A DNA stretch of 22,827 bases from a virus. The stretch spans positions 1 through 22,827 of IMG/VR virus record IMGVR_UViG_3300047310_000023; one strand, given 5' to 3'. The notes beneath the pieces are model-generated. The model saw only the letters and a list, made by a program, of their open reading frames with translations. It was not told where the DNA came from and ran no database searches. Positions 1,079 to 22,577 of the stretch are shown in pieces. Positions within the stretch are counted from its first letter, which is position 1. Every line of letters begins with the position of its first letter. The position numbers and the translations under genes are program-made.

Positions 1079-1485
1079 GGCGTTCTCCCCTGGCCGATGC
1101 CGATTGCCTGGATGATGAACGGCCCGGTCCCGGCGATCGGCCCCAGCACCATGAACGAACCCGCCACCGCCTCGCACTGCACCTGACCGGTGACCACGCG
1201 GTCGCGCGTCACCGCGATGAACGCGGTGGCATACTGCATCAGCGGCACCGACAGCGCCGCGCTGGTCAGCTCGGCCTTGAGCAGCGGCAGCGGCGGGGTC
1301 TTGCCGAGGATGTCCTCGAAATAGCGCACGCCCTTGGAGGTGTCATAGTATAGCTCACCGTTGAATAGACGGATCGCACTAGCAACGTCCTGCGCGATCG
1401 AGTAAGGCTCAGCCGCGACGGCGATGTTGCCGAACGCGTCGAGCACGAGGTCCCATGTCAGTGTATCTAACAACAGAGTCTGCAT
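1075..1485 (-). CDS. Baseplate wedge protein, gp46/gp25 (W)-like
   Basis: A 136-residue protein. I chose the ATG at 1485, which overlaps the fibre stop as TGATG and follows a GGGGTGG purine stretch; a TTG one codon upstream is also in frame. The N-terminus (LDTLTWDLVLDAFGNIAVA) followed by a segment with DVASAIRLFNGELYYDTSKG and GVRYFEDILGK matches the pattern of phage Mu gp46 / P2 W / T4 gp25-like baseplate wedge proteins. In those, the conserved core places the wedge around the hub. The C-terminal half is beta-rich and hydrophobic, ending in IQAIGIGQGRTP. In P2 and Mu the equivalent gene lies just upstream of the J-like gene; here it sits downstream of the S74 fibre. The family call is from pattern recognition, so a general structural-protein label is the fallback. 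Confidence 0.6.
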   Translation of the reverse strand: MQTLLLDTLTWDLVLDAFGNIAVAAEPYSIAQDVASAIRLFNGELYYDTSKGVRYFEDILGKTPPLPLLKAELTSAALSVPLMQYATAFIAVTRDRVVTGQVQCEAVAGSFMVLGPIAGTGPFIIQAIGIGQGRTP

Positions 1486-3392: not shown

Positions 3393-3402
3393 GCAGCCTC
3401 CA

Positions 3403-4449
3403 TCATTGGACGGTCCCGTTCGCGCGCACGCTGCCTGCGCCACGGATCGGCACGCTGAATCTGGTCGAGCTGCTGGCATGCACGCCGCCACGCCCGTCGA
3501 TCATCGCGAAGGCCAGCACCCTGCGCTGGATCGAGGCGTTGGCGCTCAGGCTGCCCACGCCGCCGATGCCGGCGCGGACCTGCGGCGGACCCACGCCGCG
3601 CATGGTGCCGACGCCGTCGATGCGCGCCGCCGCCGCCAGCTTTTGGCCCAGCAGCGGCACCGCATTCGCCGCCACCCCGCCACGCCCCGCCATACCACTG
3701 CCGCGCGCGGCGACCTGGGTGGTGGCCGAGGCGCGCACCGTAGCGACCCCCCGGAGCGTCACCGGCAGGCCGACCACGTCGGCGGTGGCCTGCACGCCAC
3801 CGATGCCGCCGATGACCGAGCCGACATGGTAGGGCGCGGCGGTGCTGGGGTTGAACGAGTAGGTGACCGAGACGCCGGTCGGACGCGGGATGACGCCGGA
3901 CTGCGAGATGATCGCCGCCGTGACCGGGGTCGGTTGGAACTCAAAGATGTAGCTGATCGACATATCCTGGTTGTCGACCACGTAAGCCCGGCCCTGCGAG
4001 GCGAACAGGTTGATCAGGATCTGGTTGATCGACGGGATCGAGCCGTTGGTGATGTTGAACATCGCCTTGGCCAGGATCAGCGTGCGATAGCCCTCGTCGT
4101 TGAGCACGTAGTTCGCGGTGAGCGGCTGGTTGGAATAGAAGATGCCGCCGCCCTGCGCTGCGGTGGGCGCCACCCATGACGTGTTGAACGGCCACGCCGA
4201 TTGCACGGTCGCCTCATTGAACCCCCAATAGGGGTCGGTGGTCTGGATCTTGAGCACCCGGCCCACCGCGACGATGCGGCCCCAGACGTCGAGGCCGTAG
4301 CCCCGCGCGGTGTCGACGTTCCAGATGAAATTATAGAAGTCCTCCAGATCCTGCTTCGGGTCGATCCACTGATTGATGGCGTAGAGCAATGTCTGGATGG
4401 TCGGCGACTGATTGTATTGACTGATAACGGTGCCTTGCCAATTGATCAC
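3403..4449 (-). CDS. DUF2612-like baseplate/tail protein with glycine-rich C-terminal repeats
   Basis: A 348-residue protein starting at a GTG that overlaps the stop of the J-like gene (GTGA), implying translational coupling. Residues 1-200 resemble the DUF2612 family, found next to J-like proteins in Bcep781/AP22-type phages and occupying the place of P2 gpI. Recognisable parts are an N-terminal helix pair (LLYAINQWIDPKQDLEDFYNF split over residues 21-41), LDVWGRIVAVGR at 53-64 and a predicted-helical segment around 121-150 including LNDEGYRTLILAKAMFNITNG. Residues 209-348 differ in composition: about seven imperfect 18-24 residue units of the form G-x-G-x-V-x-A, almost without acidic residues. 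The N-terminal part probably joins the J-like wedge to the fibre network; the role of the repeats is unknown. Confidence 0.7.
   Translation of the reverse strand: MINWQGTVISQYNQSPTIQTLLYAINQWIDPKQDLEDFYNFIWNVDTARGYGLDVWGRIVAVGRVLKIQTTDPYWGFNEATVQSAWPFNTSWVAPTAAQGGGIFYSNQPLTANYVLNDEGYRTLILAKAMFNITNGSIPSINQILINLFASQGRAYVVDNQDMSISYIFEFQPTPVTAAIISQSGVIPRPTGVSVTYSFNPSTAAPYHVGSVIGGIGGVQATADVVGLPVTLRGVATVRASATTQVAARGSGMAGRGGVAANAVPLLGQKLAAAARIDGVGTMRGVGPPQVRAGIGGVGSLSANASIQRRVLAFAMIDGRGGVHASSSTRFSVPIRGAGSVRANGTVQ
3406..3825 (-). repeat. Glycine/Val/Ala repeat region of the DUF2612-like protein
   Basis: Codons for residues about 209-348 give seven imperfect units, for example IGGIGGVQATADVV, LRGVATVRASATTQ, GRGGVAANAV, GIGGVGSLSANASIQ, IDGRGGVHASSST, IRGAGSVRANGTVQ. 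Unit length is about 18-24 residues. The composition differs sharply from the preceding domain. Confidence 0.75.
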
Positions 4450-5912
4450 GGCGCCGAAACCAGTGCGATGGAGATGTTGGCCGCCGACAGGACTGGCGCG
4501 TGGGCAACGCCGACCGCCACGTCGTCCAGGGTCGGTATCATGGAGAACATCGCCTCAGAGGTAATCGCCGGGGTCGGCGCCATGTTGAGGTTGTAGGTGC
4601 CGACGCCGCCGGTGCCGGTGCCAAGCGAGACGATGCGGGTGCCGTCCATAACGACGTGAGCAGAGTCCACCGGGGCAGTAGCAGCCACGGTTTGCCCGAT
4701 GGCGATGGCGCCGGTGGTCATGGCGGAGACGGTCATCACGGTGCCGCTGATCGCGGCGGTGAACTGCGCCGCCGGTGCCACGCTCGATCCCAGCTTGATC
4801 GACACGAGCTGCACCCACGGGCCAAGCCCGGCGACCGCCGCATAGTAGCGCGAGGCGAACACCGTCGAGCCGATCCTGGCGCGCGAGCCGCCGTCGGCAC
4901 CGCTCCACGCGTTCAGCACTACGTTCTGCACCTGGATCAGCGCGTCCTGCGGGACCTGCACGCTGTTGATCAGCGTCACCAGCATGACGAAGGTCTGCGG
5001 CGCCGCGTTCTGATAGGTGATCGGGTAGCTGGGTGCGGGCGGCGAGTAGCCGCCGTTGGTGTCATACACCGTGATCGTGGTGTTGCCCGCCATGTTGCAG
5101 CCCGGCGCCTTGCGGGTGAAGATCGCATTGGCGATGTCGGCGCCGATACCACCCGAGACGCACACATAGAGCGAGTGCGGCTGCAGCGTGACACCGTCCA
5201 CGGTGACCGCCGAGCTGGTGAAGTTTTCCGTGACATAGGCGTCGAGCACGTCGTTGACGTTCAGCACGGCGCCCAGCACCGAGGCCAGCATGCCCGCCGA
5301 ATTGCCGGCCACCGAATTGAAGCGCCGGCGTTCGAACTGCGCGCGCGTCTCGACGTCCTGGCCGACCACGCCATCGGCGTTGTTGATGATGGCGTCCCAG
5401 CCGGGAATGACGTTGTAGACCCTGTTCAACGAGCCGGTCGGACACGAGATCGGCCCCATCACGTTACATTCGAATGGCACCGTCGCGGTGCCGTCGGCGC
5501 CGATCACGCCCTGCGCGGTCGAGGTATAGAAATTGCCGTCCTTCGCCAGCGCCATCACGCCGACCGGGATGACCACGCCTTGCAGGCCGATGCAGGTCGC
5601 CTGCACCGTGGTCGGCAATGCCGGATAGCGGGTCAGGAAATAGATGCGACCGATGCCGTCCTGCATGCGGCCTTGCGAATAGGCCGGGTCGACGTTCTGC
5701 GTCAGCAGCAGGAACTGATCGTTCTTGTCCGAGATGATCGCCGCCTCGGTGGTGGCGAGCTGACCCTGCGGGGTCTCCAGTGCAGGGTTCAAGGCGCCGC
5801 CGAAGCAGGCGTTCAGATCGGCCCGCACACCCTTGAGGATGTCCTGTTCGGTCGGCAGGAGAAATCCGGTGTCAGTCCATCGTGGGCGCGGAACACTTGT
5901 TGTGCCACTCAC
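4446..5912 (-). CDS. Baseplate J-like wedge protein with inserted beta module
   Basis: A 488-residue protein with GTG start at 5912, chosen because GGGAGG lies five bases upstream and the product then begins MSGT like several neighbours. Residues 10-110 (TEQDILKGVRADLN, ETPQGQLATTEAAII, NVDPAYSQGRMQDGIGRIYFLTR) and 165-255 (AIINNADGVVGQDVETRAQFERRR) follow the Baseplate_J (P2 gpJ / Mu gp47) pattern, the main wedge component that transmits the contraction trigger. Residues about 382-458 form an extra Gly/Thr-rich beta module. It interrupts the family's usual C-terminus just before the final strand (VGVAHAPVLSAANISIALV). The same kind of module occurs in three other proteins of this window. It lies between the plug gene and the DUF2612-like gene. 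Confidence 0.85.
   Translation of the reverse strand: MSGTTSVPRPRWTDTGFLLPTEQDILKGVRADLNACFGGALNPALETPQGQLATTEAAIISDKNDQFLLLTQNVDPAYSQGRMQDGIGRIYFLTRYPALPTTVQATCIGLQGVVIPVGVMALAKDGNFYTSTAQGVIGADGTATVPFECNVMGPISCPTGSLNRVYNVIPGWDAIINNADGVVGQDVETRAQFERRRFNSVAGNSAGMLASVLGAVLNVNDVLDAYVTENFTSSAVTVDGVTLQPHSLYVCVSGGIGADIANAIFTRKAPGCNMAGNTTITVYDTNGGYSPPAPSYPITYQNAAPQTFVMLVTLINSVQVPQDALIQVQNVVLNAWSGADGGSRARIGSTVFASRYYAAVAGLGPWVQLVSIKLGSSVAPAAQFTAAISGTVMTVSAMTTGAIAIGQTVAATAPVDSAHVVMDGTRIVSLGTGTGGVGTYNLNMAPTPAITSEAMFSMIPTLDDVAVGVAHAPVLSAANISIALVSAP
4539..4769 (-). other. Beta-rich module copy in J-like protein (residues ~382-458)
   Basis: The translated segment runs from FTAAISG to near EAMFSMIP. It fits a shared pattern: xxG/A-x-I-s-G-t-x-L/M-x-V, then G-x-l-x-x-G-x-x-V, then GTGTGGVGTYNLN. 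I read this as an extra domain inserted before the last strand of the J fold. Confidence 0.65.
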
Positions 5913-5942
5913 ATGGACCTCCCTTACGCCATGTGGGCGTTG

Positions 5943-6503
5943 CTATGTGGGGGCAAAGTAACCGAGGAAATACCGCGTGTTGAGTTCGGTCCAGTTGGGG
6001 TCCTCGGTGCCCTGACTATCCCAGAACGCCAGATCGCCGGTGAACCCGAGATAGGCGTCGCGCACGATCTTGCAGCGATCCAGTGCCAGCACGCCACCGA
6101 TGATCAGATTGCCGTCGCGCCCGAGATCGATGTAGAGGCCGGTGGTGCGCTGATAGACGTTGATGTTGCAGTTTATGCCGTTCAGGCTGATCGTCAGGGT
6201 CTGCGCCGGCACCGCCAGCAACGGCACGACATATCGCGTCGTCGCGGGCACCAGCAGCGAGGCCTGAGCCAGATCCTCCGCACCCGACGTCATCGGCGCG
6301 GTAGCGACGCCGAGCGGCAGGCGCCGGTTGAGCGCGTAGGTGCCCTGGGTCCCCTGGGCGGTGCCGAGTGCGGTGATGCGGACATCGGACGGCACGTGAT
6401 CGCCGTTGATGGTATGGCCGACCGCCAGCGAGCCGGCCTGCACATCGCCGACCAGCAGCGTGTTGCCGTCGATGGAACCGGTGAAGCGCGACAGGATGAT
6501 CAT
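5943..6503 (-). CDS. Baseplate plug-like protein (Pam3 gp18 / DUF6983-like) with N-terminal beta module
   Basis: A 186-residue protein whose ATG overlaps the stop of the Dit-like gene as TGATG. Residues about 6-71 are the Gly/Thr-rich beta module shared with three other proteins here (FTGSIDGNTLLVGDV, then GTYALNRR). Residues 90-186 (YVVPLLAVPAQTLTISLNG, then GLYIDLGRDGNLIIGGV, then a C-terminal NTRYFLGYF) match the small beta domain of the baseplate plug family, known from cyanophage Pam3 and DUF6983. That domain seals the tail tube near the hub or links tube to spike. The N-terminal addition is not part of that core. The family call rests on the pattern of a proline-glutamine turn, short strands and the final aromatic strand. 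Confidence 0.65.
   Translation of the reverse strand: MIILSRFTGSIDGNTLLVGDVQAGSLAVGHTINGDHVPSDVRITALGTAQGTQGTYALNRRLPLGVATAPMTSGAEDLAQASLLVPATTRYVVPLLAVPAQTLTISLNGINCNINVYQRTTGLYIDLGRDGNLIIGGVLALDRCKIVRDAYLGFTGDLAFWDSQGTEDPNWTELNTRYFLGYFAPT
6291..6488 (-). other. Beta-rich module copy in plug-like protein (residues ~6-71)
   Basis: The segment opens FTGSIDGNTLLVGDV and continues through LAVGHTINGDHV, ITALGTAQGTQGTYALN and a closing APMT. This is the cleanest of the four copies and defines the pattern used to find the others. Confidence 0.7.
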
Positions 6504-7528
6504 CAGAAGAAAAACGATGTCGGCGGCACCGTTGTGCCGTCCTGTGGTGGCACCGGCAGTGGTGGAGCGGTCTGAGTTGGTGCGTGCGGATGCGAAGCGT
6601 CTGGCATGTTGGCCGGCGGCGGCGGCGTGGTGGCATCCGTGCGCGTCGGCATGTTGGGCCTGATCGGCTGGAACGGTCCAAAATTGGGATCGGATTCGAT
6701 GGGAAGGTGCAGATCCTCCGGCTTAACCTCCTTCGGCTGCACCGAACCAACATTGGTGGACGCCGCGCCGGTCGGCGACTTGCCTGACGTGTTGTCGGTG
6801 AATGTCGCGCCGGCGCTGATGCGAACCTCCTGCACCCAGACATCCACCACCAGCAGGTTCAGCCCGCGACGGCTCTCGCGGCTATACTCCATGTGCGTCA
6901 GGTTGGCCTGCGGATAGATCGCCTCTGGCGTCACCACGACATACATATCCAGCGACGCCACCGCGCGCTCAAGCTGGGCGAGGAACTCGGTGCGTTGCAT
7001 CGTGCCGCTGCCGATCGCGAACGAGATGCGGATGTCGAAGGGGACCTGCACCTTGTTGTAGGACGCGAAGGCGCCGCGCTCGATCGGGAAATCCGCGATC
7101 TTCATTTCGTGGCGGTAGTCCACCTTGATCACGCTGTCCCAGTTCGCGACCTCCTGCATGTTCTTATCGAAGATGCCCCATATCGGCTTGCTGAACAGCG
7201 CGCCCGGTTGGTCCTCGGTCATGGGCGCCACCAGCGCGGCGCTGAGTGCCATGCCGTAGGGGCTGACGTCGCCCGCTAGCGGCCCGCTGATGCCGGGGGC
7301 GTTGACGTTGATGCCCTGGGCCATGCCGCCGGCCCCTGGTGTGATACCGGAGAACGGCAGGCCGAGGCCGGCGGATGCGTTGATGTCGCCGGCGCCTTGG
7401 GCGATGCCGATGACGTTGCCGAAGCCGCCCTGTAGCGGCGGCACACCGGGGAATTGCAGCACGCCAGGAGCGCCTGCGGTGTTGAACGATCCGTCGGGAT
7501 TGAAGCCATAGACCGGGACCAGCGGCAT
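6503..7528 (-). CDS. Dit-like baseplate/tail protein
   Basis: A 341-residue protein starting one base after the tape measure stop. Residues 1-110 are rich in Gly, Ala and Pro and look extended. Residues about 114-237 (KPIWGIFDKNMQEVANWDSV, then DFPIERGAFASYNKVQ with PFDIRISFAIG, then RTEFLAQLERAVASLDMYVVV, then LNLLVVDVWVQEVRI) match the Dit-like N-terminal domain seen in Bcep781-type myophages. In those it forms a ring linking the tube end to the baseplate hub. Residues 265-341 are a proline-rich tail ending in PPTSFFF with no family features I know. The tail codons are in the same frame with no break, so this is a genuine low-complexity extension. The domain call is strong; the function of both flanks is open. 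Confidence 0.75.
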   Translation of the reverse strand: MPLVPVYGFNPDGSFNTAGAPGVLQFPGVPPLQGGFGNVIGIAQGAGDINASAGLGLPFSGITPGAGGMAQGINVNAPGISGPLAGDVSPYGMALSAALVAPMTEDQPGALFSKPIWGIFDKNMQEVANWDSVIKVDYRHEMKIADFPIERGAFASYNKVQVPFDIRISFAIGSGTMQRTEFLAQLERAVASLDMYVVVTPEAIYPQANLTHMEYSRESRRGLNLLVVDVWVQEVRISAGATFTDNTSGKSPTGAASTNVGSVQPKEVKPEDLHLPIESDPNFGPFQPIRPNMPTRTDATTPPPPANMPDASHPHAPTQTAPPLPVPPQDGTTVPPTSFFF

Positions 7529-7529
7529 T

Positions 7530-10500
7530 TCACACCAGCCCCGTATCGACCTGCGACACGTAGTCGTAGCGCTTCAGCTCGCCCTTGATGCTCTTGGCGA
7601 TACCGGCGGCATCGGTCGCGGCGGTATGCACGTGCAGATCGCCGATATGGGTCTGTGACGACTGCGAGCGATCGACGTTGGAGGTGTTGCTCGCCATCTG
7701 GAACTCCTGCGCCGTGGTCGAGGCGCCGACCGGCGGGAGCGTCTGGCTGCCGCCGGCCCAGGAACCGCCACCAGCGCTCGCCTGAGCGGCCACCGGGACT
7801 GGGGGTGTCAGGGTAGAGACCGCCGCCGGGGATGGCGCCAGCGGTGCCCTGGGCGGCAGCGTCTGGGGTGTTGGCGGGGTCGCCGCCGACGCGACCTGGG
7901 GCGCCGGCGAGGTGCCGTAGCGTTTGTGGATGGATTCCAGCGTCGACTGATAGTTCGACGCGGTCGCGTAGCCGCTGTGTCCCTGCGCTTCCAGCCCTTC
8001 GGCGACGGTTTTCGCCGCGAGCACGGGGGCATAATGCTTCGGGTGTCGCTTGAGGAACTCGACATAGCCGGTGGCGGCTTCCTCTTTGCTGCCGAACGTC
8101 GCGAAGCTGGCATTGATGGTATACCGCCCGCCCTTCCCCTCTTCTTGCGTCGAGACCGGCGCGCCGGCACCGCCGACACCACCGCCCGACTTGATGCCAT
8201 AGACGTTGTAGCCGCCCGGCGTGTGGGCGCCGCCGCCCGATTCCAGCGTTGCCTGCGTCGCGCCGACCTCGGCGACGACCTCGGGATGTGGCAACCCAGC
8301 CTTGACCGCCGCGTCGTAGATCAGCTTCCGCTGCTCGTCGTAAAACGCGCTCTTGCCGCCGCCGACCCCCAGGGGTGCGACGGGGCCATCGGCAGCAGCG
8401 GGCGCCCCGGCGCCCTCGCCGCCACCACCGCCGCCGCCACCCTCACCCTGACCGCCACCACCGCCGCCACCGGGACCTCCCGGCCAGCCGGGAGCGTCAG
8501 CGGCAGGCGTGCCGATCGGTGGTAAAGCGCGTGGGGCGCCTTCGCCGATACCGGTGCCACGGCCCCACACCGCCGTCGAAGCGGGCATTGCGGCGGCCCC
8601 ACCGGCGGGAGTTGGCTGCGCCGCTGCGGCGGAACCACCAGCAGGAGCGGCCCTCGGTCCGCCGATGAACTCAGGCACCCAGTTCGGCATCCAGCTCGGG
8701 CGTCGACTGCTGGTGTCATCATCGCCGTGTCGAGCGGCGAATTGCTGGGTCAGTGCGGCGCTCGCGAACCCGCCACCGGCGGGCGCCACAGGCCCCTCGA
8801 CGGGCGTGCCGATCGGCGTCAGTGATGCCGAGCCGCCGGGCCTCGGTGCCTCTGTAGCAGCCGCTGCGGGCGTTGGTGTAGGCGCGGGTGTCGCGGAAGA
8901 CGTTGGGGCGGGCGCCGTGGGCGCAGCGGCGGGCGGCGTTGGTGCCGGCGCTGTGGGCGTCGTGAAGGCCGGCGCAGCGGGTGTCGTGGGCGTTGGTGCG
9001 GGCGCTGTGGGCGTCGCGGCGGGCGGTGGTGGTGCCGGCGCTAGTGGTGCCGGCGCTGGCCCGCCACGGTTGCTCGGCGCCCACCAGTCGGACGCCGGGG
9101 CCGCTGGTGCTACCGGGTGCCCTGCTGGCTGGGCGGGTGTTGCCGAGTGCGCAGCCTCTGCCGCCTTCGCCGCCTCCTCGTCAGCCTTCTTCCCCGCCGC
9201 CGCCTGCGCCGCCGCGACGCGCTTTTCCATCTCCTCGCGGCTGATGACTTCGCCGGTCTGGCGATGGCGATAGCTCGCGGCATTGCCGCCGCCCGCCTCA
9301 AATTCGCCGGTGACGTCCTTCACGTCGTAGCCCAGCGCGTCGGCGGCTTGGTTCGCGTGCCGCTCGGCGAGGATGTCGCTGCCTACGGCGATCCCCGCGA
9401 TCACGCCCACGGTGCCGGCGCCAGCGGCGACGCTGGCGGCGGTGCCGGCGACAGCGCCGGCGGCGCCCACAGCGCCAGCGGCAGTGCGGGCCGCGACGAG
9501 AGCGAGCAGCGCGTCCTTCAGCGATATGATCGTTTTGATAGCCGCGAAGATCTTGCTGCCGAGCCAGAACGTCGCGAACGCTTCCATCACCATGTGCCAG
9601 CCGCCGATCGCCTGGACGGCCTCGTTGGCGACGTGGGCGATTTCACCGATCGTCGTGGCAAACTGACCGGCGCCGCCGTTGATCAGCAGATCGAAGTCAC
9701 GCGCCAGGGCGAGGATCGCCTCGCCCAGTCGCTTGCCCCACTCGGTGGCCTTCTCGGTCAGCCAGTCGCGGTTCTTGTCGATCCAGCGCTCGATCCGCTC
9801 CACGATCTGGGTGATGCCGGGACCTAGTTCGCGCCAGAACGCCCTGGCCAGCCCCATGGCCGAGTTCTCGACCTTGTCGAGCGCCGCGCTTAGCGCCAGC
9901 GCGTCCTTGGCATCTTGCGGCGTCGTGATGTTGCCCGAGCGCTGCTGATACTCCCGTTCTTTGCGGATCTCCGCGCCACCGGAAATGACCGCCGGCGCCA
10001 AGCCGGGGACGCCCATCTGCTCGACACCATATTGCCGCTGAGCGCCGGTCATCCCCTTGCGGTCAGCAGCGTCGGCCAGTACCAGGGCGATGTCGTCTGG
10101 CGACATCATTTCGCCGTCGGGGCCGATGATGTTGGCGCCGAATATCTCGCGCGCCTGCGACGGCATGTTGGATTTGCCGGTGTAGTGCCACGCCTGACGC
10201 TCGCGCGCCAACGTCGCCAGCGCGCTGGCGGTGCCCTGCGCCGTGCCGCCCAGGCGGCCCGCCATGTTCTCCCAGGTGGTCAGCGCATCGACGTCCATGC
10301 CGATGCTGCGTGCTAAATTGGAGGCCTGCTCGTTGGTCCGCAGGATGCCGCTGAACAGCCGCTCGATCGCCGAGACCGACATCGAGATCCCGAACAGCGC
10401 CAGCAGCTCGGTGGCGACGCGCTTGACGCTGTCGGCGGTCTTTCCGTAGGCCTCCTCCGCCCGGCGCGCCGCTTCACGCTGCACCTCGGCGGTCTGCTTC

Positions 10501-10775
10501 GCCGCCTCCTGCTGCTCGTGCGCGGCCTTCTTCGCCGCCGCTTCCTGCGCCGCCGCTGTCTTCTCGGCAGAATCGATCGCCTGCTCTGCCGAACGCTGCT
10601 GGGTATGCGCGGTGTTGGTCGCGGTCTTCTCGGTCTCCTGCTCGATCCTCTGCAGGGTGGCGAGAACCTGTTGCAGGAAGCTGTTGGTGGTGGCCTTGGC
10701 CTGCTCGATCCCGTCACCGAACTCGGTGGGATCGAGCTTCAGCGTCATCGTCAGTTCATCGATGATCGTCGGCAT
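7530..10775 (-). CDS. Tape measure protein with glucosaminidase-like domain
   Basis: At 1081 residues the longest product here and placed where a tape measure is expected. The ATG at 10775 follows GAGGG four bases upstream. Residues 1-30 (LTMTLKLDPTEFGDGIEQAK) match common tape measure N-termini. Residues 35-120 are a long Ala/Gln/Glu coiled coil. Residues 400-470 are Ala/Gly-rich and hydrophobic, suiting membrane contact during DNA entry. Residues 543-805 are Pro/Ala/Thr and then Gly-rich low complexity. Residues about 807-953 resemble FlgJ-like GH73 glucosaminidases (ATQATLESGGG with candidate catalytic Glu845, NVYGIKSGGG, FATFGSKEEAATGYVEFLKRHP). This would cut peptidoglycan during injection. 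The C-terminus (LKRYDYVSQVDTGLV) is typical of tape measures. It sets tail length as a scaffold inside the tube. Confidence 0.88.
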   Translation of the reverse strand: MPTIIDELTMTLKLDPTEFGDGIEQAKATTNSFLQQVLATLQRIEQETEKTATNTAHTQQRSAEQAIDSAEKTAAAQEAAAKKAAHEQQEAAKQTAEVQREAARRAEEAYGKTADSVKRVATELLALFGISMSVSAIERLFSGILRTNEQASNLARSIGMDVDALTTWENMAGRLGGTAQGTASALATLARERQAWHYTGKSNMPSQAREIFGANIIGPDGEMMSPDDIALVLADAADRKGMTGAQRQYGVEQMGVPGLAPAVISGGAEIRKEREYQQRSGNITTPQDAKDALALSAALDKVENSAMGLARAFWRELGPGITQIVERIERWIDKNRDWLTEKATEWGKRLGEAILALARDFDLLINGGAGQFATTIGEIAHVANEAVQAIGGWHMVMEAFATFWLGSKIFAAIKTIISLKDALLALVAARTAAGAVGAAGAVAGTAASVAAGAGTVGVIAGIAVGSDILAERHANQAADALGYDVKDVTGEFEAGGGNAASYRHRQTGEVISREEMEKRVAAAQAAAGKKADEEAAKAAEAAHSATPAQPAGHPVAPAAPASDWWAPSNRGGPAPAPLAPAPPPPAATPTAPAPTPTTPAAPAFTTPTAPAPTPPAAAPTAPAPTSSATPAPTPTPAAAATEAPRPGGSASLTPIGTPVEGPVAPAGGGFASAALTQQFAARHGDDDTSSRRPSWMPNWVPEFIGGPRAAPAGGSAAAAQPTPAGGAAAMPASTAVWGRGTGIGEGAPRALPPIGTPAADAPGWPGGPGGGGGGGQGEGGGGGGGGEGAGAPAAADGPVAPLGVGGGKSAFYDEQRKLIYDAAVKAGLPHPEVVAEVGATQATLESGGGAHTPGGYNVYGIKSGGGVGGAGAPVSTQEEGKGGRYTINASFATFGSKEEAATGYVEFLKRHPKHYAPVLAAKTVAEGLEAQGHSGYATASNYQSTLESIHKRYGTSPAPQVASAATPPTPQTLPPRAPLAPSPAAVSTLTPPVPVAAQASAGGGSWAGGSQTLPPVGASTTAQEFQMASNTSNVDRSQSSQTHIGDLHVHTAATDAAGIAKSIKGELKRYDYVSQVDTGLV
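7917..8357 (-). other. GH73/FlgJ-like glucosaminidase domain within the tape measure
   Basis: Residues about 807-953 of the tape measure. The order is helix, QATLESGGG (candidate catalytic Glu845 encoded at 8241-8243), NVYGIK, a basic/Gly loop, then SFATFGSKEEAATGYVEFLK and a closing helix around SGYATASNYQSTLESIHKRY. This matches the layout of peptidoglycan glucosaminidases. Activity is inferred, not shown. Confidence 0.7.
8361..9149 (-). repeat. Low-complexity Pro/Ala/Thr and Gly coding region of the tape measure
   Basis: Codons for residues about 543-805 give alternating Ala-Pro-Thr stretches and, near 8400-8480, runs of Gly codons. On the plus strand this appears as repeats of GGCGC/GTTGGTGC and of CCGCC. 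It is an in-frame linker separating the membrane-like region from the glucosaminidase-like domain. No separate gene is supported inside it. Confidence 0.8.
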
Positions 10776-10808
10776 GCGGCCCTCGCTATCAGACCGCGTC
10801 GGTCGCTG

Positions 10809-11762
10809 TCAGATCGGGTTCACCGACGCCATGATCGTGGAGAACCACGGACCGTTCGGCATCTCGCTTTCAAGCGTGTAGGTGTATGAATAGGTCAGGT
10901 AATACCAGATGTCGCCCGGCTTGTCGGGGGTGTCGCCGCCGTTGAACAACTGGCTCTGCACGCCGATCTTCTTGCCGCCCAGCAGCACTTTGCGGAACAG
11001 GCACGTGAAGATGATGCCCTTCTCGTTGAAGGTCGGGTAATCCTTCAGGCCGTTCTGCGGAGTGAACAGCGGCACGTCCTGCCCGGCGGCGCGCTCCTTG
11101 TTGCGCTCCCAGATGGCAAGCACGTTGTTCTCCAGCGTGAAGTTGATACCGGAATGCTCGGCGATGCGCCTGATCTGCTGCAAGACCGTGCCGGGATAAT
11201 AGATATCGCGCAGCTTGGCCTGCACGCCGCCGGCGTCTTCGAAATGGGCACCCATCCGCTGGGCGAGCTGCTGCATGGTGCTCGACACGTCGACCGTGCC
11301 CTGGATGCTGACCGGCGGCGCCGGCTTGATGGCGGCGAGACCACCCTCATAACCGGTGACCTGCAGCGCCACGTCGGGCTGCGACGTGCCGTCGAAATAG
11401 GCGTCGTAGATGTTGCCGTAGAACACCTGGGTCATGCCGGCGAGATCGTCGCCCGCCTCGACAATGACGCGGTTGTCGCGGGTGCCGTCGTATTTCCGAC
11501 CGAAGGTGAGCACCTTCTGCATGTCGCTCAGCTTCATGCCCCAGATGCGAAGGTTCAGCGCCGTCTGCTGGCCGAGCGCGCCCTTGGTGATGGTTGCCTG
11601 GGCGCGATAGCCGCGCAGGGTGATGGTGTTATGGCCACTCTCGCCGAACTGTCCGGTGCCCATCGAGAAGGTGATGTCGAGCTTTCGCCTGATATAGGGG
11701 ACCGCCGATGCGAACGCCCCCTCTGTGTCGGCGGCGGTGAATTGCGCGGAGGCGTCGGACAT
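10809..11762 (-). CDS. Baseplate hub protein (gpD/gp27-like)
   Basis: A 317-residue protein starting three bases after the spike stop. No strong Shine-Dalgarno is visible, so translation is probably coupled to the spike gene. Segments such as RRKLDITFSMGTGQF near the start, VFYGNIYDAYFDG near 115-125, a central SSTMQQLAQRMGAHFEDAGG and LQQIRRIAEHSGINFTLENN followed by LAIWERNK fit the hub proteins of myophages. These form the trimer that adapts tube to spike. The C-terminal third (FRKVLLGGKKIGVQSQLFNG, then YYLTYSYTYTLESEMPNGPW) is beta-rich and fits the last hub domain. It lies between spike and tape measure, an uncommon position since hub genes usually follow the tape measure gene. Confidence 0.75.
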   Translation of the reverse strand: MSDASAQFTAADTEGAFASAVPYIRRKLDITFSMGTGQFGESGHNTITLRGYRAQATITKGALGQQTALNLRIWGMKLSDMQKVLTFGRKYDGTRDNRVIVEAGDDLAGMTQVFYGNIYDAYFDGTSQPDVALQVTGYEGGLAAIKPAPPVSIQGTVDVSSTMQQLAQRMGAHFEDAGGVQAKLRDIYYPGTVLQQIRRIAEHSGINFTLENNVLAIWERNKERAAGQDVPLFTPQNGLKDYPTFNEKGIIFTCLFRKVLLGGKKIGVQSQLFNGGDTPDKPGDIWYYLTYSYTYTLESEMPNGPWFSTIMASVNPI

Positions 11763-11765
11763 CGG

Positions 11766-12437
11766 CTACACCGTCGGTGGCGCGGTGCTGCCGAGGCCGC
11801 CCTGCACACCACCATGGACATGCGTGTTGTCGATGTGCTTGCCGTTGCTGGTGATGGTGCCGCCGGTCTGCTCGATCGGACCGACGATCTTGATCGCCGC
11901 CGCGTTGATGGTCAGCGTGCCGGTCGCGGTGATCGCCATGTCCTTCTTGGTCAGCAGCGCCATGCCGTCATCGGTGAATTGCACATACTGCTCCGGCGCC
12001 TGCTTGGCGATCACCGTGCCGATATAGAGCGCGTCGGCCAGATCGTGGCGGCGCAGCGATCCCGGCGTCGAGGCGTCGCCCTTGTTGGCCTTGACCGCGC
12101 TGATGTCGCGCGAGGCGCAGACGATGACCCCGATATCACCCACCTTGGGGTCCATGATGATGCCGTTGGCGCCGGTCTGCGCACGGTGATACGGGATGTT
12201 GAAGATCGTGCCGTGCGGATGGGCGTTGCCGTCGCCGTCGATCTGATGCACCAGCAATTGCACGTCGATCGTGCCGGGTGGTGCCACCTCGCCGTTGCTG
12301 CGCGCACTGACCACGGTGACCACCGCCGATGTCGCGACCTCGGACAGCACGCTGTCGACCATGAAGCGCAGCGCGGTGGCCTCGGAGCCGATGCCCTTGG
12401 CGCCGCGAAATCCGGTATAGCCATCCGAGCCTGACAT
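11766..12437 (-). CDS. Baseplate spike / central puncturing protein (Gp138 N-terminal-like)
   Basis: A 223-residue protein with its ATG one base beyond the stop of the -1 frame chaperone extension. Residues 25-145 match the Gp138-N oligonucleotide-binding-like domain of phage phi92-type spikes: VVSARSNGEVAPPGTIDVQL, then NAHPHGTIFNIPYHRAQTG, then IIMDPKVGDIGVIVCASRDI, KANKGDASTPGSLRRHD. Residues 150-200 are short beta repeats ending in a narrow tip. The sequence THVHGGVQGG contains an H-x-H pair (His206, His208) at the spot where P2 gpV and phi92 gp138 coordinate an iron ion at the apex. The spike pierces the outer membrane at the start of injection. Family identity is strong; the metal site is inferred from the motif. 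Confidence 0.85.
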   Translation of the reverse strand: MSGSDGYTGFRGAKGIGSEATALRFMVDSVLSEVATSAVVTVVSARSNGEVAPPGTIDVQLLVHQIDGDGNAHPHGTIFNIPYHRAQTGANGIIMDPKVGDIGVIVCASRDISAVKANKGDASTPGSLRRHDLADALYIGTVIAKQAPEQYVQFTDDGMALLTKKDMAITATGTLTINAAAIKIVGPIEQTGGTITSNGKHIDNTHVHGGVQGGLGSTAPPTV

Positions 12438-13075
12438 CTAGCGCTCCTGGTCGCGTGTCGCCCATCGCGTGGCAAGCTGATGGTTGAAGTTGTCGACCCT
12501 GATCACCTCTGACAGCTTATAGAGATCCGCAACCCCGTAGACGGTGTCAAGCTGGTTTAGCGTGGCGAGCTTGGCCGAGATCACCGCCCCGAGCGCGCCG
12601 CTGCCAAGGTTGCGATATTCTGACCAGATGGGTTGCTCGCCTCCGACGTATCCGCTGTCGAGGTCCAGAACCTGCCGCGCACGGAAAAACCCAGATGGGT
12701 GTCGAACCACGCCTCCCGCAGCGTCATCAGCGTGGTGAGTTCTTCGATGTCGTCGTTGATGATCAATTGCCGCACGATGTTGGATCGCTCGGGGTTGGGC
12801 TGGTAGGTGACGCACGCCATCATCTCGTCCAGCAGCGGCTTGCACACCGTCCAGTCGATGCCGCCGATGCCATGCACGGCGATCCACGCGGCACAGCCTT
12901 CGAAGCCCATCTGGAAGAACCCCGGCGGCACGTTGGTGTTGCCGGCAGCGAACATGGTCAGCAGCCGACCCGCCCAGTATTCCGCGTCGGTCGCGGCCAT
13001 CTCGGTGATCCAGAACACCTTGCCTTTGTCGCGCCCCTCGCGCTCGATCACCACGCGATCGCGCCGGCGCGCCAT
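12438..13075 (-). CDS. Tail assembly chaperone, -1 frameshift fusion (GT-type)
   Basis: The long form of the chaperone, made by slipping back one base on GGGTTTT at 12692-12686. It shares about 130 residues with the short form (13075 to 12686) and then reads about 82 codons in the -1 frame to the TAG at 12440-12438, about 212 residues in total. The extension (QVLDLDSGYVGGEQPIWSEYR, then LNQLDTVYGVADLYKLSEVIRVDNFNHQL) has ordinary protein composition and no start codon of its own with a ribosome site. The short form's own continuation past the slip site, by contrast, has a weakly structured, Ser/Ala-rich look. In lambda, gpG and gpGT fulfil this role: they bind the tape measure and recruit tube subunits. 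The spike ATG begins one base after this stop. Confidence 0.75.
12581..13075 (-). CDS. Tail assembly chaperone, short form (G-type)
   Basis: The 0-frame product, 164 residues, starting at the ATG at 13075, which overlaps the tube stop as TAATG. The opening (RRRDRVVIEREGRDKGKVFW, then ITEMAATDAEYWAGRLLTMF) and the central PLLDEMMACVTYQPNPER with INDDIEELTTLMTLREAWFDTHLGF resemble the tail assembly chaperone of Bcep781/AP22-type phages. There, acidic helical repeats of this kind end in an L-H-x-G-F motif at the frameshift site. The product normally binds the tape measure and does not remain in the virion. An in-frame upstream extension to 13375 lies inside the tube gene and was rejected. Confidence 0.8.
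   Translation of the reverse strand: MARRRDRVVIEREGRDKGKVFWITEMAATDAEYWAGRLLTMFAAGNTNVPPGFFQMGFEGCAAWIAVHGIGGIDWTVCKPLLDEMMACVTYQPNPERSNIVRQLIINDDIEELTTLMTLREAWFDTHLGFSVRGRFWTSTADTSEASNPSGQNIATLAAARSGR
12686..12692 (-). promoter_or_regulatory. Programmed -1 ribosomal frameshift site (GGGTTTT)
   Basis: On the coding strand the heptamer lies as G GGT TTT in the 0 frame, a canonical X XXY YYZ slip sequence. It equals lambda's GGGAAAG in type. The shifted reading continues through 83 codons with no stop until 12438. A six-pair stem with one bulge (12662-12657 with 12647-12641) lies about 24 bases downstream and could aid slipping; I cannot fold it here. Confidence 0.75.
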
Positions 13076-13539
13076 TAAAGAAGCTGCTCCACAGCCGCCG
13101 GCAGCGCGCTGAGCGGCACCGTCGTGATGCTCTGCCACGTGATCGAGAACCGGCGCGGCTGCAGGATGCGCCGCGCATCGGCCATCGGCGGATAGTTGGT
13201 GAGGAACCCTTTGACGCAGTGGAACGCCCGGGACACCGACTGCAGCGTGATATGCGCGTCGGCGACGAGCACCTCGCGTGCCGCCTCCTGCGCCGCATAC
13301 CAATTGTCGAACAGGTCGTTCGACCGGCTGTCCGCCTGCAGCGCGATGGTCTGCACCTTGGGCTGCGGCGTCCAACCGCCCGACAGGTAACCATCGACGC
13401 CCATCAACGTCTCCACCGGTGCCACCAGGGCATGCGAGAAGATGTCGTCGGCGGCGAACCCGTGCAATTGTTGCGGCGTGTCATACAGGGTCGGTATCGC
13501 GATCATGAACACCGCGTTGGCGGCAGTGATAGTTGCCAC
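13075..13539 (-). CDS. Tail tube protein (probable)
   Basis: A 154-residue protein beginning at a GTG, with a perfect AAGGAGGT ribosome site four bases upstream (about 13543-13550), which decides the start. The pattern DDIFSHALVAPVETLMGVDG with GYLSGGWTPQPKVQTIALQADSRSNDLFDNWYAAQ and the C-terminal PRRFSITWQSI resembles tube proteins that sit directly after a DUF3383-type sheath in related phages. Those lines are beta-hairpin-rich. The tube is a stack of hexamers through which DNA passes. It lies between sheath and chaperone, the usual tube position in contractile tails. The strength of the ribosome site suits a highly expressed product. An assignment as another tail structural protein is the alternative. 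Confidence 0.75.
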   Translation of the reverse strand: MATITAANAVFMIAIPTLYDTPQQLHGFAADDIFSHALVAPVETLMGVDGYLSGGWTPQPKVQTIALQADSRSNDLFDNWYAAQEAAREVLVADAHITLQSVSRAFHCVKGFLTNYPPMADARRILQPRRFSITWQSITTVPLSALPAAVEQLL

Positions 13540-13570
13540 GGTAACCTCCTTACCCGCGCGAGCGGTGCTA

Positions 13571-15397
13571 TTATTGGACCATCACTGACGCGAGGGTGAG
13601 CCGCTGGATGCTGCCGCCGTCCATATACCAGAACGTCATGGGCGGCGTGCCACGGGAGACACGAACCTCCGGCGGTGGATCGAGAACCTGCAGGTAGTAA
13701 CCGTTGGACTGGAGGATGCGATCGATCTCCACGCCCGCCATGGTGTTGACCTCGGCAACCTGCGCCTGCGACAACACCACGCCGATGCGGATCGCGCCGA
13801 AATTCACCGCGCGATTGATCACGTCCTGGCACGCCGCCTTGATCATGGTGTAGCCGACCTGATTGTAGGGGATCGACCCCGCCTGGGTGAGCAGGTCCAT
13901 CAAGGCGAGTTGGAACGCGTTGTTCATCCAGATCTGGTTGACGTAGCTGTCGATCCAGCGATAGGGGCCGGACACCAACCCGGGATACAGGAAGCGGAAC
14001 AGATCGTTCGCCGTCGTCCAGATGCCGTAGTAGTTGTAGAAATTGGATTCCAGGTTGGAGGCAACCGCACCGCTGGTGACCTCGGGCACGATGCCGGTCT
14101 GGCCACGGAACGCCAGGGTCTTGCGACCGTTGAGGCGATTGAAATCGATCGCCGCGATGGTGCCCATGGTGAACATCGCGAGGTTGCGACCATTGGTGAC
14201 CGACGTCGATGAGATCGGCACCGTGCCGGATGTCAGGTTGGTGTTGAGGATGCGCCCCAGGCTGCTCTGCGCGTTAGGCGAGACGGTCGGCGAGCGGTCG
14301 AGGTCCCACGCGACATAGAGATAGTTGTTCTGCTGCAGATTGGTCCAGGCGGCAAACTGCTGCTTGTAGGTGTTGGTGGTGCCGGCAACGGCATCAATGT
14401 CGAAGTCAGTGGTGAATGACGCCCAGTTCTGCGTCAGCTTCAGTATGTTGTCCATACAAGCCGCCACCGAATCCAGCGGGCGTCCCCCAGACGTCCACGA
14501 CATGCCCATCGGCTGCAGACGCGCGCCGGTGGACTGCGACAGGCCGATCTGGGTTGCCAGATTGCCGGACCACCCGGTCAGATGCGACATGGTCGGCACG
14601 CGCGTAGTGGTGTCGGTGTTGGGGGCCAGGAATGGTGCGACGGCGATCATGAACTGGAAGGTCGCGCTATCCCAGGTGCAGCAGTTGACATACGCTTTGA
14701 TCGTTATGGGTGTGGTAATGTTCAGCGTGCGGTTGATGGTGAAAGTGCCGGTCAACCAGTTATCCGTCGTGGCGATGCCGTTTATGATGTAGGTGCCGGC
14801 GGGAATGCCGGGACCGGTGATCGGCGATCCAGCCTGGAAACTTCCGCCGACGGCACCGTGCGAGATGATCCTGAGCGTAGTGCCACTGATCGTGCCGCTG
14901 GCTTGGGTGATCATCGGGGAGCCATAATACGGGATAGCGGCACCGATCATCTGCGCCGCCATCGAGAACGATGTGGCGCTCGCCAGGGTGATGGGCTGGC
15001 TGGTCAGGCTAACGCCGTCCATCATCAGGGTGATCGTGGAGTTCGCCTGCGTCGCCTGGAGCTGCGGCAGCGTCATGGCCGGCAATTGCGCCGATCGCAG
15101 CCACGCCGGCAGCCAACGGCCACCGCCGGTCCAGGTGGCCATCAGCAGCGCGCCAGGGCGCTTGGTGGCATTGATGTCAGCAAGGAAATACGTGCCGGCC
15201 AGCATCGAGATGTAGCTGGTCGGGCCGAAGAATGCCTGCACCGACGTCAGGTCAGGGAACGAATAGACCTGATCGATTGGAATGTGGTTATCGTAGGTGA
15301 TCACCAACCCAAGCAGATCGAGGCCGACGCCACCCGCGTTGAGAACGGACGGAACGACAGAGACGATTTGACCGGCGGGAATCGCAGAACCGCTCAT
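13571..15397 (-). CDS. Tail sheath protein (DUF3383-like)
   Basis: A 608-residue protein with ATG at 15397 and a GAGGAG site about eight bases upstream. The N-terminus (IPAGQIVSVVPSVLNAGGVG, then LGLVITYDN, FPDLTSVQAFFGP) and the C-terminal half (GPYRWIDSYVNQIWMNNAFQ, MIKAACQDVINRAVNFGAIR, YYLQVLDPPPEVRVSRGTPP) are typical of the DUF3383 sheath family. Residues 118-258 form a surface domain of that family (ITLMMDGVSL, SFSMAAQMIG, TWDSATFQFMIAV). It is itself interrupted at about 166-236 by the Gly/Thr-rich beta module seen in three other virion proteins. The sheath contracts to drive the tube through the envelope. The closing domain suggests a complete protein. It is the first gene after the longest gap in the window, which may hold a promoter. 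Confidence 0.9.
   Translation of the reverse strand: MSGSAIPAGQIVSVVPSVLNAGGVGLDLLGLVITYDNHIPIDQVYSFPDLTSVQAFFGPTSYISMLAGTYFLADINATKRPGALLMATWTGGGRWLPAWLRSAQLPAMTLPQLQATQANSTITLMMDGVSLTSQPITLASATSFSMAAQMIGAAIPYYGSPMITQASGTISGTTLRIISHGAVGGSFQAGSPITGPGIPAGTYIINGIATTDNWLTGTFTINRTLNITTPITIKAYVNCCTWDSATFQFMIAVAPFLAPNTDTTTRVPTMSHLTGWSGNLATQIGLSQSTGARLQPMGMSWTSGGRPLDSVAACMDNILKLTQNWASFTTDFDIDAVAGTTNTYKQQFAAWTNLQQNNYLYVAWDLDRSPTVSPNAQSSLGRILNTNLTSGTVPISSTSVTNGRNLAMFTMGTIAAIDFNRLNGRKTLAFRGQTGIVPEVTSGAVASNLESNFYNYYGIWTTANDLFRFLYPGLVSGPYRWIDSYVNQIWMNNAFQLALMDLLTQAGSIPYNQVGYTMIKAACQDVINRAVNFGAIRIGVVLSQAQVAEVNTMAGVEIDRILQSNGYYLQVLDPPPEVRVSRGTPPMTFWYMDGGSIQRLTLASVMVQ
14690..14902 (-). other. Beta-rich module copy in sheath protein (residues ~166-236)
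   Basis: The segment runs ASGTISGTTLRIISHGAVGG, then FQAGSPITGPGIPAGTYI, TGTFTINRTLNITTPITI. It aligns with the plug copy position by position, including the I-x-G-x-x-L start and the G-T-F/Y-x-I/L-N turn. It sits within the sheath's outer domain, between a helix and the following strand. Confidence 0.65.
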
Positions 15398-15457
15398 GGC
15401 GCGAGGCTCCTCTGGTATGTCGGGGAAATACGCGCGGCGTGACGCGACGCGGTCGGA
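15398..15457 (-). other. Longest intergenic gap, upstream of the sheath
   Basis: Sixty bases between the neck terminator stop and the sheath start. It holds the sheath ribosome site (GAGGAG). A weak GC-rich self-pairing patch (GCGTCGCGTCACGC on the coding strand) is present but has no T-run, so I do not call it a terminator. A clear -35/-10 pair is not visible. Confidence 0.4.
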
Positions 15458-16198
15458 TCAGGGGGTGTGCGGGGTCACTTGCGGCATCGTCACCACATCG
15501 ACCGAATAGATGCCGAGCCTCAGTTGGTCGGCGAACTCCTGATCGAGCGAGACGACGAGATTGACCTGGGTGTGCAGATCAACGATCCAGCGGTCTTCCC
15601 ACTGTGACTCGGCATTGGGGAACGGCACCATGCGCGGATCTTCGGCATAGAGCGGTGTCATGCCGTAGGGTTGCGACGCCTGCGCCAGGAGCTGGCAGCC
15701 CCGTTCGTCACGCCACGTGGTCTGGATCGCCAGCGCGTTCATGTTGCCGTTGGGACCATGCACGTCGCACTGATAGACCACGTCCATCGGCTGCAGCATG
15801 GTGTGCCGCCCGGCATAGATATTACTGCCTGCCGCGACCATCTGCGGCGGCGCCACGGTGTAGCTCCCGGGGGTCTCCAACACGGCGGTGACCACGCTGC
15901 CAGGAACCATCACCGAGCCGTAGAGCAGGTATCCCGGCAATAGCTTTGGGCCGGAGGTCACGGTCAGCGTGTCGTTGACGATGCCACCGATCAGATGAAG
16001 ATCCGCGTCGGCGTCGACATTGGTCGACAGCCGTTCGCGTCGCAGCGTGGTCAGCACGCAGAAGTCCGGCGACAGCGGTTCCGGCACCCGGTTGCCATAG
16101 GCGCGGATCACCTCGACGCCGGTTGGCAGGATGCCGAGCAGCACCGCGCGCACCGCTGTCATGATCTCGGTGTCGCCGATACTGACCAGGGCTGGCAT
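15458..16198 (-). CDS. Neck / tail terminator-like protein (gp12-like) with inserted beta module
   Basis: A 246-residue protein whose ATG overlaps the upstream stop as TGATG. The N-terminus (LVSIGDTEIMTAVRAVLLGI, then GVEVIRAYGNRVPEPLSPDF, LTTLRRERLSTNVD) and the C-terminal half (YQCDVHGPNGNMNALAIQTT, TPLYAEDPRMVPFP, QWEDRWIVDLHTQVNLVVSL, QEFADQLRLGIYSVDVV) follow the gp12-like neck terminator family of Bcep781-type phages. These cap the tail and join it to the head. Residues about 66-130 are an extra Gly/Thr/Val-rich beta module splitting the family core between two strands. The same kind of module recurs in sheath, plug and J-like proteins. The gene sits just upstream of the sheath, its usual place. 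Confidence 0.8.
   Translation of the reverse strand: MPALVSIGDTEIMTAVRAVLLGILPTGVEVIRAYGNRVPEPLSPDFCVLTTLRRERLSTNVDADADLHLIGGIVNDTLTVTSGPKLLPGYLLYGSVMVPGSVVTAVLETPGSYTVAPPQMVAAGSNIYAGRHTMLQPMDVVYQCDVHGPNGNMNALAIQTTWRDERGCQLLAQASQPYGMTPLYAEDPRMVPFPNAESQWEDRWIVDLHTQVNLVVSLDQEFADQLRLGIYSVDVVTMPQVTPHTP
15809..16003 (-). other. Beta-rich module copy in neck protein (residues ~66-130)
   Basis: The segment has GGIVNDTLTVTSGPKLLPGY, then LLYGSVMVPGSVVTAVLETP and GSYTVAPPQMVAAGSNIY. It matches the pattern I-x-x-x-x-L-x-V, G-x-x-x-x-G-x-x-V-x-G, G-x-Y-x-V, but is the most diverged of the four copies. Confidence 0.55.
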
Positions 16199-18799: not shown

Positions 18800-19402
18800 T
18801 TACGCCGGATACTGCGTCGGATACTGTTGCGGCGGCTGCTGCACTGGTTGCGCCACGGGCTGCTGTGGCGGCGGCGCCATCGGGCGCTCCTGCTGGCGGC
18901 GCTCCACGATCGCCAGGGCCTGCTGCTGCGCCTGCTCTGCCGCGCCACGCTCGGCTGTCGCCGCCTCGGCCTGCGCATCGGCCTGCTTGCGCAGGATCTC
19001 GGCCTGCCGGATCTGGGCGTCGGCCTGCCGCACCCGTTGGGCGGCCACCTGGGCGGCGGTGCGCGCCGCGTCCAGCGGGGTGTCCTCGGCGAGCGCGCCG
19101 CCGGTGTCATCCTCCAGCCCTAGCTCAAACCCGTATTCGTCCTGCGTATCTTGCATGGCATCCACCTCGGCCTGGGTGACCGGTCTAACGGTGTCCAGCA
19201 GCGCCGGGTTCGCGGTCATCCACTCGTTGAACGCCGCGAGATCGACGTCATAGGTGATGCCGGTGCCATGCACCGCGCCGGGGTCGCGCTGGCCGACGAT
19301 GGTGACGGAATAGGGGTCGACCCCCTCCGGGTGCGTCGTGGCCGAGCATAGCACCGAGACCGGCAGGGTGCTGGCGACGATCGTGGTGGTTGATCCGGAC
19401 AT
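18800..19402 (-). CDS. Tandem paralogue C: virion-type protein with coiled coil and Gln/Pro tail
   Basis: A 200-residue protein with ATG at 19402 and GGGAG eight bases upstream. Residues 1-98 resemble the two upstream genes: TIVGQRDPGAVHGTGITYDV, DLAAFNEWMTANPAL, DEYGFELGLE. Paralogue B has TIVGQRDPSAVNGWGLTYDV and QWMVAHPQ, YGLENGFE. Residues 110-172 are a predicted coiled coil rich in Ala, Gln, Arg and Glu. Residues 173-200 are almost wholly Gln, Pro, Tyr and Val. No known family is recognised for the N-terminal domain. The set lies between major capsid and adaptor genes, suggesting a capsid-surface or assembly role. The tail is a low-complexity addition. Confidence 0.7.
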   Translation of the reverse strand: MSGSTTTIVASTLPVSVLCSATTHPEGVDPYSVTIVGQRDPGAVHGTGITYDVDLAAFNEWMTANPALLDTVRPVTQAEVDAMQDTQDEYGFELGLEDDTGGALAEDTPLDAARTAAQVAAQRVRQADAQIRQAEILRKQADAQAEAATAERGAAEQAQQQALAIVERRQQERPMAPPPQQPVAQPVQQPPQQYPTQYPA

Positions 19403-20458: not shown

Positions 20459-20467
20459 GCTGACCCC

Positions 20468-22559: not shown

Positions 22560-22577
22560 CTCGCTGGCTCCCTGGGA

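Follow-up and report, generated by a model that had tools for sequence, protein, structure and literature searches.

The stretch of DNA analysed here, called the window throughout, comprises the 22,827 nucleotides of a virus record from IMG/VR (IMGVR_UViG_3300047310_000023), and its structural genes, encoded on the minus strand, are those of a contractile-tailed phage. Four of these genes, coding for a neck terminator, a tail sheath protein, a J-like baseplate wedge and a plug resembling gp18 of Pam3, each contain a segment of about 64 residues that we refer to as the module (Table 1). The four are also the full set of copies in a longer record of this virus (44,769 bases). Our main finding is that the four segments are, as judged from sequence comparison, one homologous module residing in unrelated proteins, and that this module is a widespread, hitherto unnamed building block of the virions of environmental tailed phages.

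Four copies of one module

Plain Smith-Waterman alignment with 500 shuffles placed two pairs of segments above chance: plug and wedge with a score of 96, sheath and plug with a score of 64 (0 of 500 shuffles in both cases). The score of sheath and wedge was weak (39, 66 of 500 shuffles), and those of the neck segment with the other three were no better than chance (203 to 327 of 500 shuffles), so that pairwise alignment alone is insufficient as proof of the neck copy.

Seven loci were found when viral contigs were searched with the plug segment: five of this virus, one that holds two tandem copies of the module (L008), and L009. A first profile was made of 186 unique copies from L008, L009 and 80 further loci, which are the best 80 of at least 425 relative-encoding loci among at least 600 pattern matches; loci of this virus were excluded. 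Run on the 245 stop-to-stop open reading frames (ORFs) of the window, this profile ranked exactly the four named proteins at the top, with E-values of 5.8e-17 for the plug, 1.9e-16 for the wedge, 1.6e-4 for the sheath and 5.9e-3 for the neck. A wider profile of 313 unique copies, from which the virus's own loci were excluded through shared 40-mers, gave 1.5e-17 (plug), 1.6e-15 (wedge), 1.2e-6 (neck) and 6.4e-6 (sheath), the last two values leaning on homologous sites because the set includes neck and sheath copies of other viruses. The ORF ranked fifth (22002-22577, minus strand) gives a partial match only, at 0.16 with the first profile and 0.35 with the wider one, and this match is probably due to chance.

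The two weaker copies were examined further. The best of 1000 shuffles of the neck ORF reached 6.1 bits, to be compared with 21.9 observed (622 reported, the others under the reporting limit), and the best of 1000 shuffles of the sheath ORF reached 7.8 bits, compared with 20.3 (920 reported, the others again under the limit). Shuffled ORFs from all loci produced zero matches to the wider profile at E <0.05. Finally, hhalign matched the neck and sheath families, of four rows each, to the generic module profile at 96.1% (2.9e-9) and 96.0% (3.8e-9), and to one another at 78.3% (1.8e-5). The original prediction, that one module is common to the four named proteins, was thus borne out by a profile made without this virus, and the profile alignment proposed as a check of it supports the neck and sheath copies.

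Table 1. Module copies, their host genes and neighbouring genes, with positions in the window
Feature	Length or residues	Position	Strand	Basis
Neck terminator gene	246 aa	15458..16198	-	PF23961, 5.2e-21
Neck module copy, profile-matched core	71-123	15830..15988	-	profile match, hhalign 96.1%
Tail sheath gene	608 aa	13571..15397	-	PF11863 DUF3383, 5.6e-94; phrog_205 tail sheath
Sheath module copy, profile-matched core	168-228	14714..14896	-	profile match, hhalign 96.0%
Sheath, whole extra stretch compared with empty relatives	159-239	14681-14923	-	relatives' alignment
J-like baseplate wedge gene	488 aa	4446..5912	-	PF04865 Baseplate_J, 2.2e-12; phrog_6
Wedge module copy near C-terminus, profile-matched core	384-452	4557..4763	-	profile match 1.9e-16
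Pam3 gp18-like plug gene	186 aa	5943..6503	-	PF22479, 7.2e-17, residues 92-183
Plug module copy at N-terminus, profile-matched core	7-61	6321..6485	-	profile match 5.8e-17
Tape-measure-like protein		7530-10775	-	glucosaminidase domain PF01832, residues 833-953, after a long Pro/Ala-rich stretch
Tail fibre-like protein		1485-3491	-	C-terminal intramolecular chaperone domain Peptidase_S74, residues 570-630
DUF2612 protein		3403-4449	-	PF11041, residues 6-197

Filled and empty sites in the host families

Relatives of the four proteins were aligned to determine whether the module belongs to the core of each family. The 43 sheath relatives fall into two classes: the loop between the 'ATSFSNAA' helix and 'VTYDS' has 3 residues in 27 of them, which are empty at the module site, and 72-149 residues in the 16 that are filled. 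Three relatives (L109, L114 and L124) hold two modules there, and the best copy found at this site in a sheath relative has an E-value of 3.7e-17. When the insert columns are left out of the sheath tree, five changes of insert state are implied, at least three of them on well-supported branches.

Relatives of the wedge, neck and plug were taken from records picked with and without copies, and the ratios of filled to empty sites in these families are not frequencies. As the second-round match lists for wedge and neck contain module-only matches, the rows used were those in which the host core was seen by eye to be present. Among 18 wedge relatives, 12 have one or more copies; the other 6, which measure 415 to 432 residues, are free of the module. 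In the alignment of 10 filled and 6 empty wedges (both omitted relatives carry copies), the insert is located directly before the last core strands; the window's wedge copy has an additional 7-residue turn. The 16 aligned neck relatives comprise 8 filled and 8 empty ones, the insert occupies a single loop, corresponding to about residues 66-130 of the window's protein, and several relatives have strong copies at the same site (3.5e-20 to 2.6e-13). The plug copy precedes the usual start of its family and is present in one of 18 aligned plug relatives (18 of 21 matches, three second-round ones being excluded as non-plugs by eye); even L186, a virus with a 68% identical J protein, has a plug without the module.

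The module is therefore missing from 27/43 sheaths, 6/18 wedges, 8/16 necks and 17/18 plugs, which is not what is expected of a core segment. Judging from these alignments, the sheath, wedge and neck copies are insertions outside the normal family core; the proposal of three inserted copies and one N-terminal copy holds, and for the three inserted ones the clean empty sites of relatives contradict the alternative that each segment is a normal part of its family.

The sheath site can be placed on a known structure. It corresponds to about residues 150-158 of the E217 and Pa193 sheaths (sequence alignment, counted by hand), and in the passages describing the Pa193 sheath, residues 91-210 form a flexible domain, residues 23-90 plus 211-491 forming the core (PMC11042391). 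The site lies within the flexible domain, so the module is added outside the conserved core. By inference, the modules of neck, wedge and plug would also be exposed at the surface.

Besides the four host genes and the three neighbours listed in Table 1, the window holds three consecutive minus-strand genes (18800-20896) that resemble tandem paralogues in their N-terminal parts: genes 19418-20458 and 18800-19402 share 47% over 97 residues (9e-21), and gene 20468-20896 matches more weakly (28% over 83, 2e-4). The C-terminal 150 or so residues of the DUF2612 protein are rich in Gly and Ala and show a faint periodicity of 40 residues (25/113 positions).

Spread, divergence and inheritance

In all, 241 loci, this virus's included, yielded 442 copies at E <1e-3 in 313 ORFs, 105 of which hold two or more copies in tandem. 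Once the modules were masked, the 256 distinct host ORFs formed 51 clusters, a few of which are short fragments; family scans covered 46 of the 51 cluster representatives, five very long or very short frames being omitted. Where the function of a host is named, the host is a component of the particle: head closure Hc3, head-tail adaptor Ad3, minor head protein, head protein, sheath, baseplate wedge, tail fibres and phage capsid protein. The remark in the original prediction that other phage proteins have similar segments was thus correct, and the suggestion of a mobile domain is supported in the sense that the module is common to many unrelated virion proteins and inserted into recognisable cores.

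Other searches widen this range. A tblastn search of named phages with one natural copy matched 7 records (E up to 10), of which five have E-values no higher than 3e-6, including Sinorhizobium phages phiLM21 and phi3LM21 with a match in the tail fibre; other module queries gave no match in named phages, perhaps owing to the low-complexity filter. Foldseek comparison with viral models gave 12 matches at E 0.001 or better, with template modelling (TM) scores by query length of 0.77 to 0.88, including an HK97 capsid protein, P22 gp10 and a pectate lyase-type protein. The fold of the module was also matched in collagen-repeat proteins of the giant virus Indivirus ILV1 (BFVD A0A1V0SCQ2 and A0A1V0SDM6; TM 0.77-0.78, 23-32% identity). 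On bacterial and archaeal genome contigs, 55 of 181 pattern matches encode a relative. Long carriers that are not obviously viral include a DUF6701 protein with a lectin-like domain (L206) and a TadE/G-like protein (L229), and on a Nitrosarchaeum contig the module lies in a frame of 1905 residues (L208).

Existing collections do not name the module. Pfam and NCBIfam scans named no family over it, the family listing for the 46 hosts giving no positions, and literature searches by word listed no paper that names it. Among the 25 of 83 PHROG families listed, PHROGs 21413 (function unknown) and 38233 (tail fiber protein) were matched by 39 and 33 of the 46 host proteins, and both include the module as an internal part. 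These are clusters of whole proteins, and their labels fit one carrier protein, not the module.

The history of the copies was examined with 65 full copies from 19 genomes. Mean protein identity is 46.1% between copies in different genes of the same genome and likewise 46.1% between different genes of different genomes; it rises to 54.1% for the same host site in different genomes. At the DNA level, copies in different host families are at most 69% identical (46-59% among the window's four), and only one of the 65 has its nearest copy in another gene of its own genome. Compared with permuted labels, protein similarity between the copies that one genome has in different genes is slightly raised (6/500); the DNA excess within genomes is small (2.8 points, 0/500 permutations) and can stem from shared base composition. 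A module tree, of few columns and three firm branches, shows 19 changes of host label against a mean of 42.4 after shuffling, sheath copies being the exception with 8 changes for 8 rows. The insertions thus seem to be old, and most seem to have been passed on at their site, with recurrent gain or loss.

Copies also tend to occur together. The 19 records picked for a copy have 2 to 8 copies each, record G054 has a single one, and the records of seven insert-free sheath relatives have none. In a sample of 47 records that have a sheath relative and span 20 kb or more, further copies were found elsewhere in 12 of the 12 records with a sheath copy and in 7 of the 35 without (Fisher 9.6e-7, uncorrected for kinship). 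Related records are among them, and some may be incomplete; for 17 of the 47, the sheath state was read from match length or from a copy found rather than from the 43-row alignment. On the firm branches of the sheath tree, three independent pairs differ in the insert and the other trait differs in one or two of them; with three pairs only, a kinship-corrected test of co-occurrence is powerless. This many-or-none pattern of copies per phage is suggestive only.

Fold, putative role and comparison with known domains

AlphaFold prediction of the plug copy together with 90 aligned copies gave a predicted local distance difference test score (pLDDT) of 87.1 and a predicted TM score of 0.76, with strands at residues 2-20, 28-30, 38-42 and 50-71. 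The whole sheath, predicted with 43 rows (pLDDT 83.7), has insert strands at 162-184, 192-195, 203-211 and 216-236, and its core resembles insert-free sheaths (Z 35.1 with Pa193, Z 33.6 with E217). The two copies that were predicted, those of plug and sheath, have the same strand order, as would be expected if the four segments have a common fold. The module is predicted to be a compact beta domain in which two long outer strands flank short strands and Gly-rich turns.

Among the PDB matches listed, a chain of 124 residues from phage Bridgette scores highest (Z 7.3), followed by eEFSec (7.2), Pbp11 and IF2 (6.8 each), the tail tube of phage Mystique and Uba1 (6.5 each), and F1 ATPase (6.4). 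Small barrels, namely those of translation factors, the F1-ATPase crown and E1 FCCH, match over nearly the whole module, at Z 5.7 to 7.2, which is under the level that separates them from common arrangements, and with low sequence identity. Since all listed PDB matches are below Z 8, a small barrel is hinted at by these models and nothing is classified. The E1 FCCH family (PF16190) was considered as the module's own and dropped: its profile is silent in the window's proteins at E up to 1 and in all 19 module-bearing records, and in the family listing for the 46 host proteins, which has no positions, it matches two. Sequence searches for solved homologues gave none that is credible (best E 0.23 to 1.5).

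In composition the module differs from its hosts: charged residues make up 3.4% of it, compared with 12.4% of the rest of the same proteins, Thr, Ser, Gly, Ala and Val together make up 69% compared with 45%, and Trp, His and Cys are virtually missing. With conserved columns that are mostly Gly, Thr and hydrophobic residues, this argues against a catalytic site or one of fixed chemistry, and for a robust neutral knob. We consider surface decoration with weak, many-copy adhesion to be the likeliest use of the module, by a little better than an even chance, the domain being one that is small, self-folding and accepted into virion loops. By this account phages would repeatedly have taken such a beta domain into loops of unrelated virion proteins. 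Because the long strands at its two ends probably pair, the module could replace a hairpin tip or a helix-strand loop while the host core stays undisturbed, and it would project from the virion as an almost uncharged knob of Thr, Ser, Gly and Ala. Such knobs would alter the contact of the virion with its surroundings through weak, many-copy adhesion to polymers of the cell surface or matrix. We infer the adhesion step from placement, composition and analogy: the tandem copies resemble adhesive chains, and adhesion or stability has been proposed for extra domains of sheath proteins in the passages of a 2022 study (PMC9230969). Weak glycan binding, as suggested in the original prediction, would be a reading by analogy. 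Several points weigh against this account: the conserved columns contain no polar site, Pfam and NCBIfam scans gave no lectin or carbohydrate-binding profile over the module, the fold matches listed from the PDB are weak, some host proteins on bacterial contigs are not obviously viral, and plug and neck copies lie at positions where subunit contacts are also plausible, which would favour cementing.

Cementing ranks second among the explanations, possible in our view and distinctly less probable than decoration with weak adhesion. In this case the copies, rather than serving adhesion, would lend stability to capsid, neck, sheath and baseplate by touching adjacent subunits or one another, as might be expected from the many hosts that are particle joints (head closure, head-tail adaptor, terminator, wedge and plug) and from the stability role also offered for extra sheath domains in the same passages (PMC9230969). 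Phage Bridgette, the source of the best listed PDB match, is described in part of one report as having dimeric capsid cement proteins (PMC13033339), and the matched chain may be one of them. What lowers the probability of cementing is the sheath: its module sits in the flexible domain and not in the core, a majority of sheath relatives do without it, and its insert state has changed five times on the tree. These same changes, the solitary filled plug and the lack of a conserved polar site are what a mere passenger would leave, that is, a fold tolerated in loops, gained and lost with little benefit and spread through ease of insertion rather than function. We rank this third and hold it to be unlikely, since the copies, which are old, have retained their pattern of sequence (mean identity 46% between sites), host labels cluster on the module tree, and every record with a sheath copy has more copies elsewhere (kinship uncorrected).

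A further idea, to which we give a similarly low probability, is a particle-wide common interface in which one neutral module at many sites presents or docks to one shared partner; this may be a polymer of the host or the matrix, a small protein serving as decoration, or a sugar attached to the Thr/Ser-rich surface. It would explain the several copies per record in different proteins and the many-or-none pattern among related phages. That a DNA element has recently been copying itself, leaving an open frame by chance, would account for the same module at several places in one genome, but is very improbable given the low DNA identity between host families and among the window's four copies, and the single nearest neighbour within a genome. 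Least probable of all, and close to negligible, is that Gly/Thr-rich low-complexity beta segments resemble one another by chance or are normal family cores: the biased composition and the neck copy's pairwise scores would allow it, but the shuffled ORFs, the profile-profile matches of neck and sheath and the clean empty sites speak against it. Decoration with weak adhesion is thus ranked ahead of cementing, and cementing ahead of a passenger.

The definition of the module covers a domain that is common in environmental phage virions yet unrecognised by the Pfam and NCBIfam scans. Because it links unrelated proteins it can mislead annotation: all matches of the window to phrog_38233, labelled tail fiber protein, stem from it. 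The clean filled and empty sites show where sheath, wedge and terminator naturally tolerate an insertion, so that the role of extra surface domains in phages can be put to a direct test. Should the many-or-none pattern hold once kinship is corrected for, it would be a sign of selection acting on the surface of the particle as a whole, not on single proteins.

The closest known analogy is with the immunoglobulin-like (Ig-like) domains of phages, including the additional domains of sheath proteins. As far as the passages on them go, these are also small beta additions outside the conserved core that have spread between phages, and the weak adhesion or stability roles proposed for them are the analogy used here for the module (PMC9230969); addition to several kinds of virion proteins, a trait of Ig-like domains, is found in the module too. 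It differs from them in being shorter, in its listed folds, which are mostly small barrels and weakly so, and in the absence of Ig-like Pfam matches at E up to 1 in the four window proteins and in 8 relatives; Ig folds are not among the 50 listed structural matches, a listing that excludes nothing. More generally, phage domain mosaicism involves domains common to proteins of different function, and an N-terminal Ig-like domain has been linked to contemporary mosaicism (PMC10684548); the passages of that study do not name the module, and the word 'sheath' has 0 occurrences in its main text. Within this setting, the module is an unnamed variant of the promiscuous domains of phage virions, distinct in its sequence and its spread over the whole particle, and perhaps in its fold.

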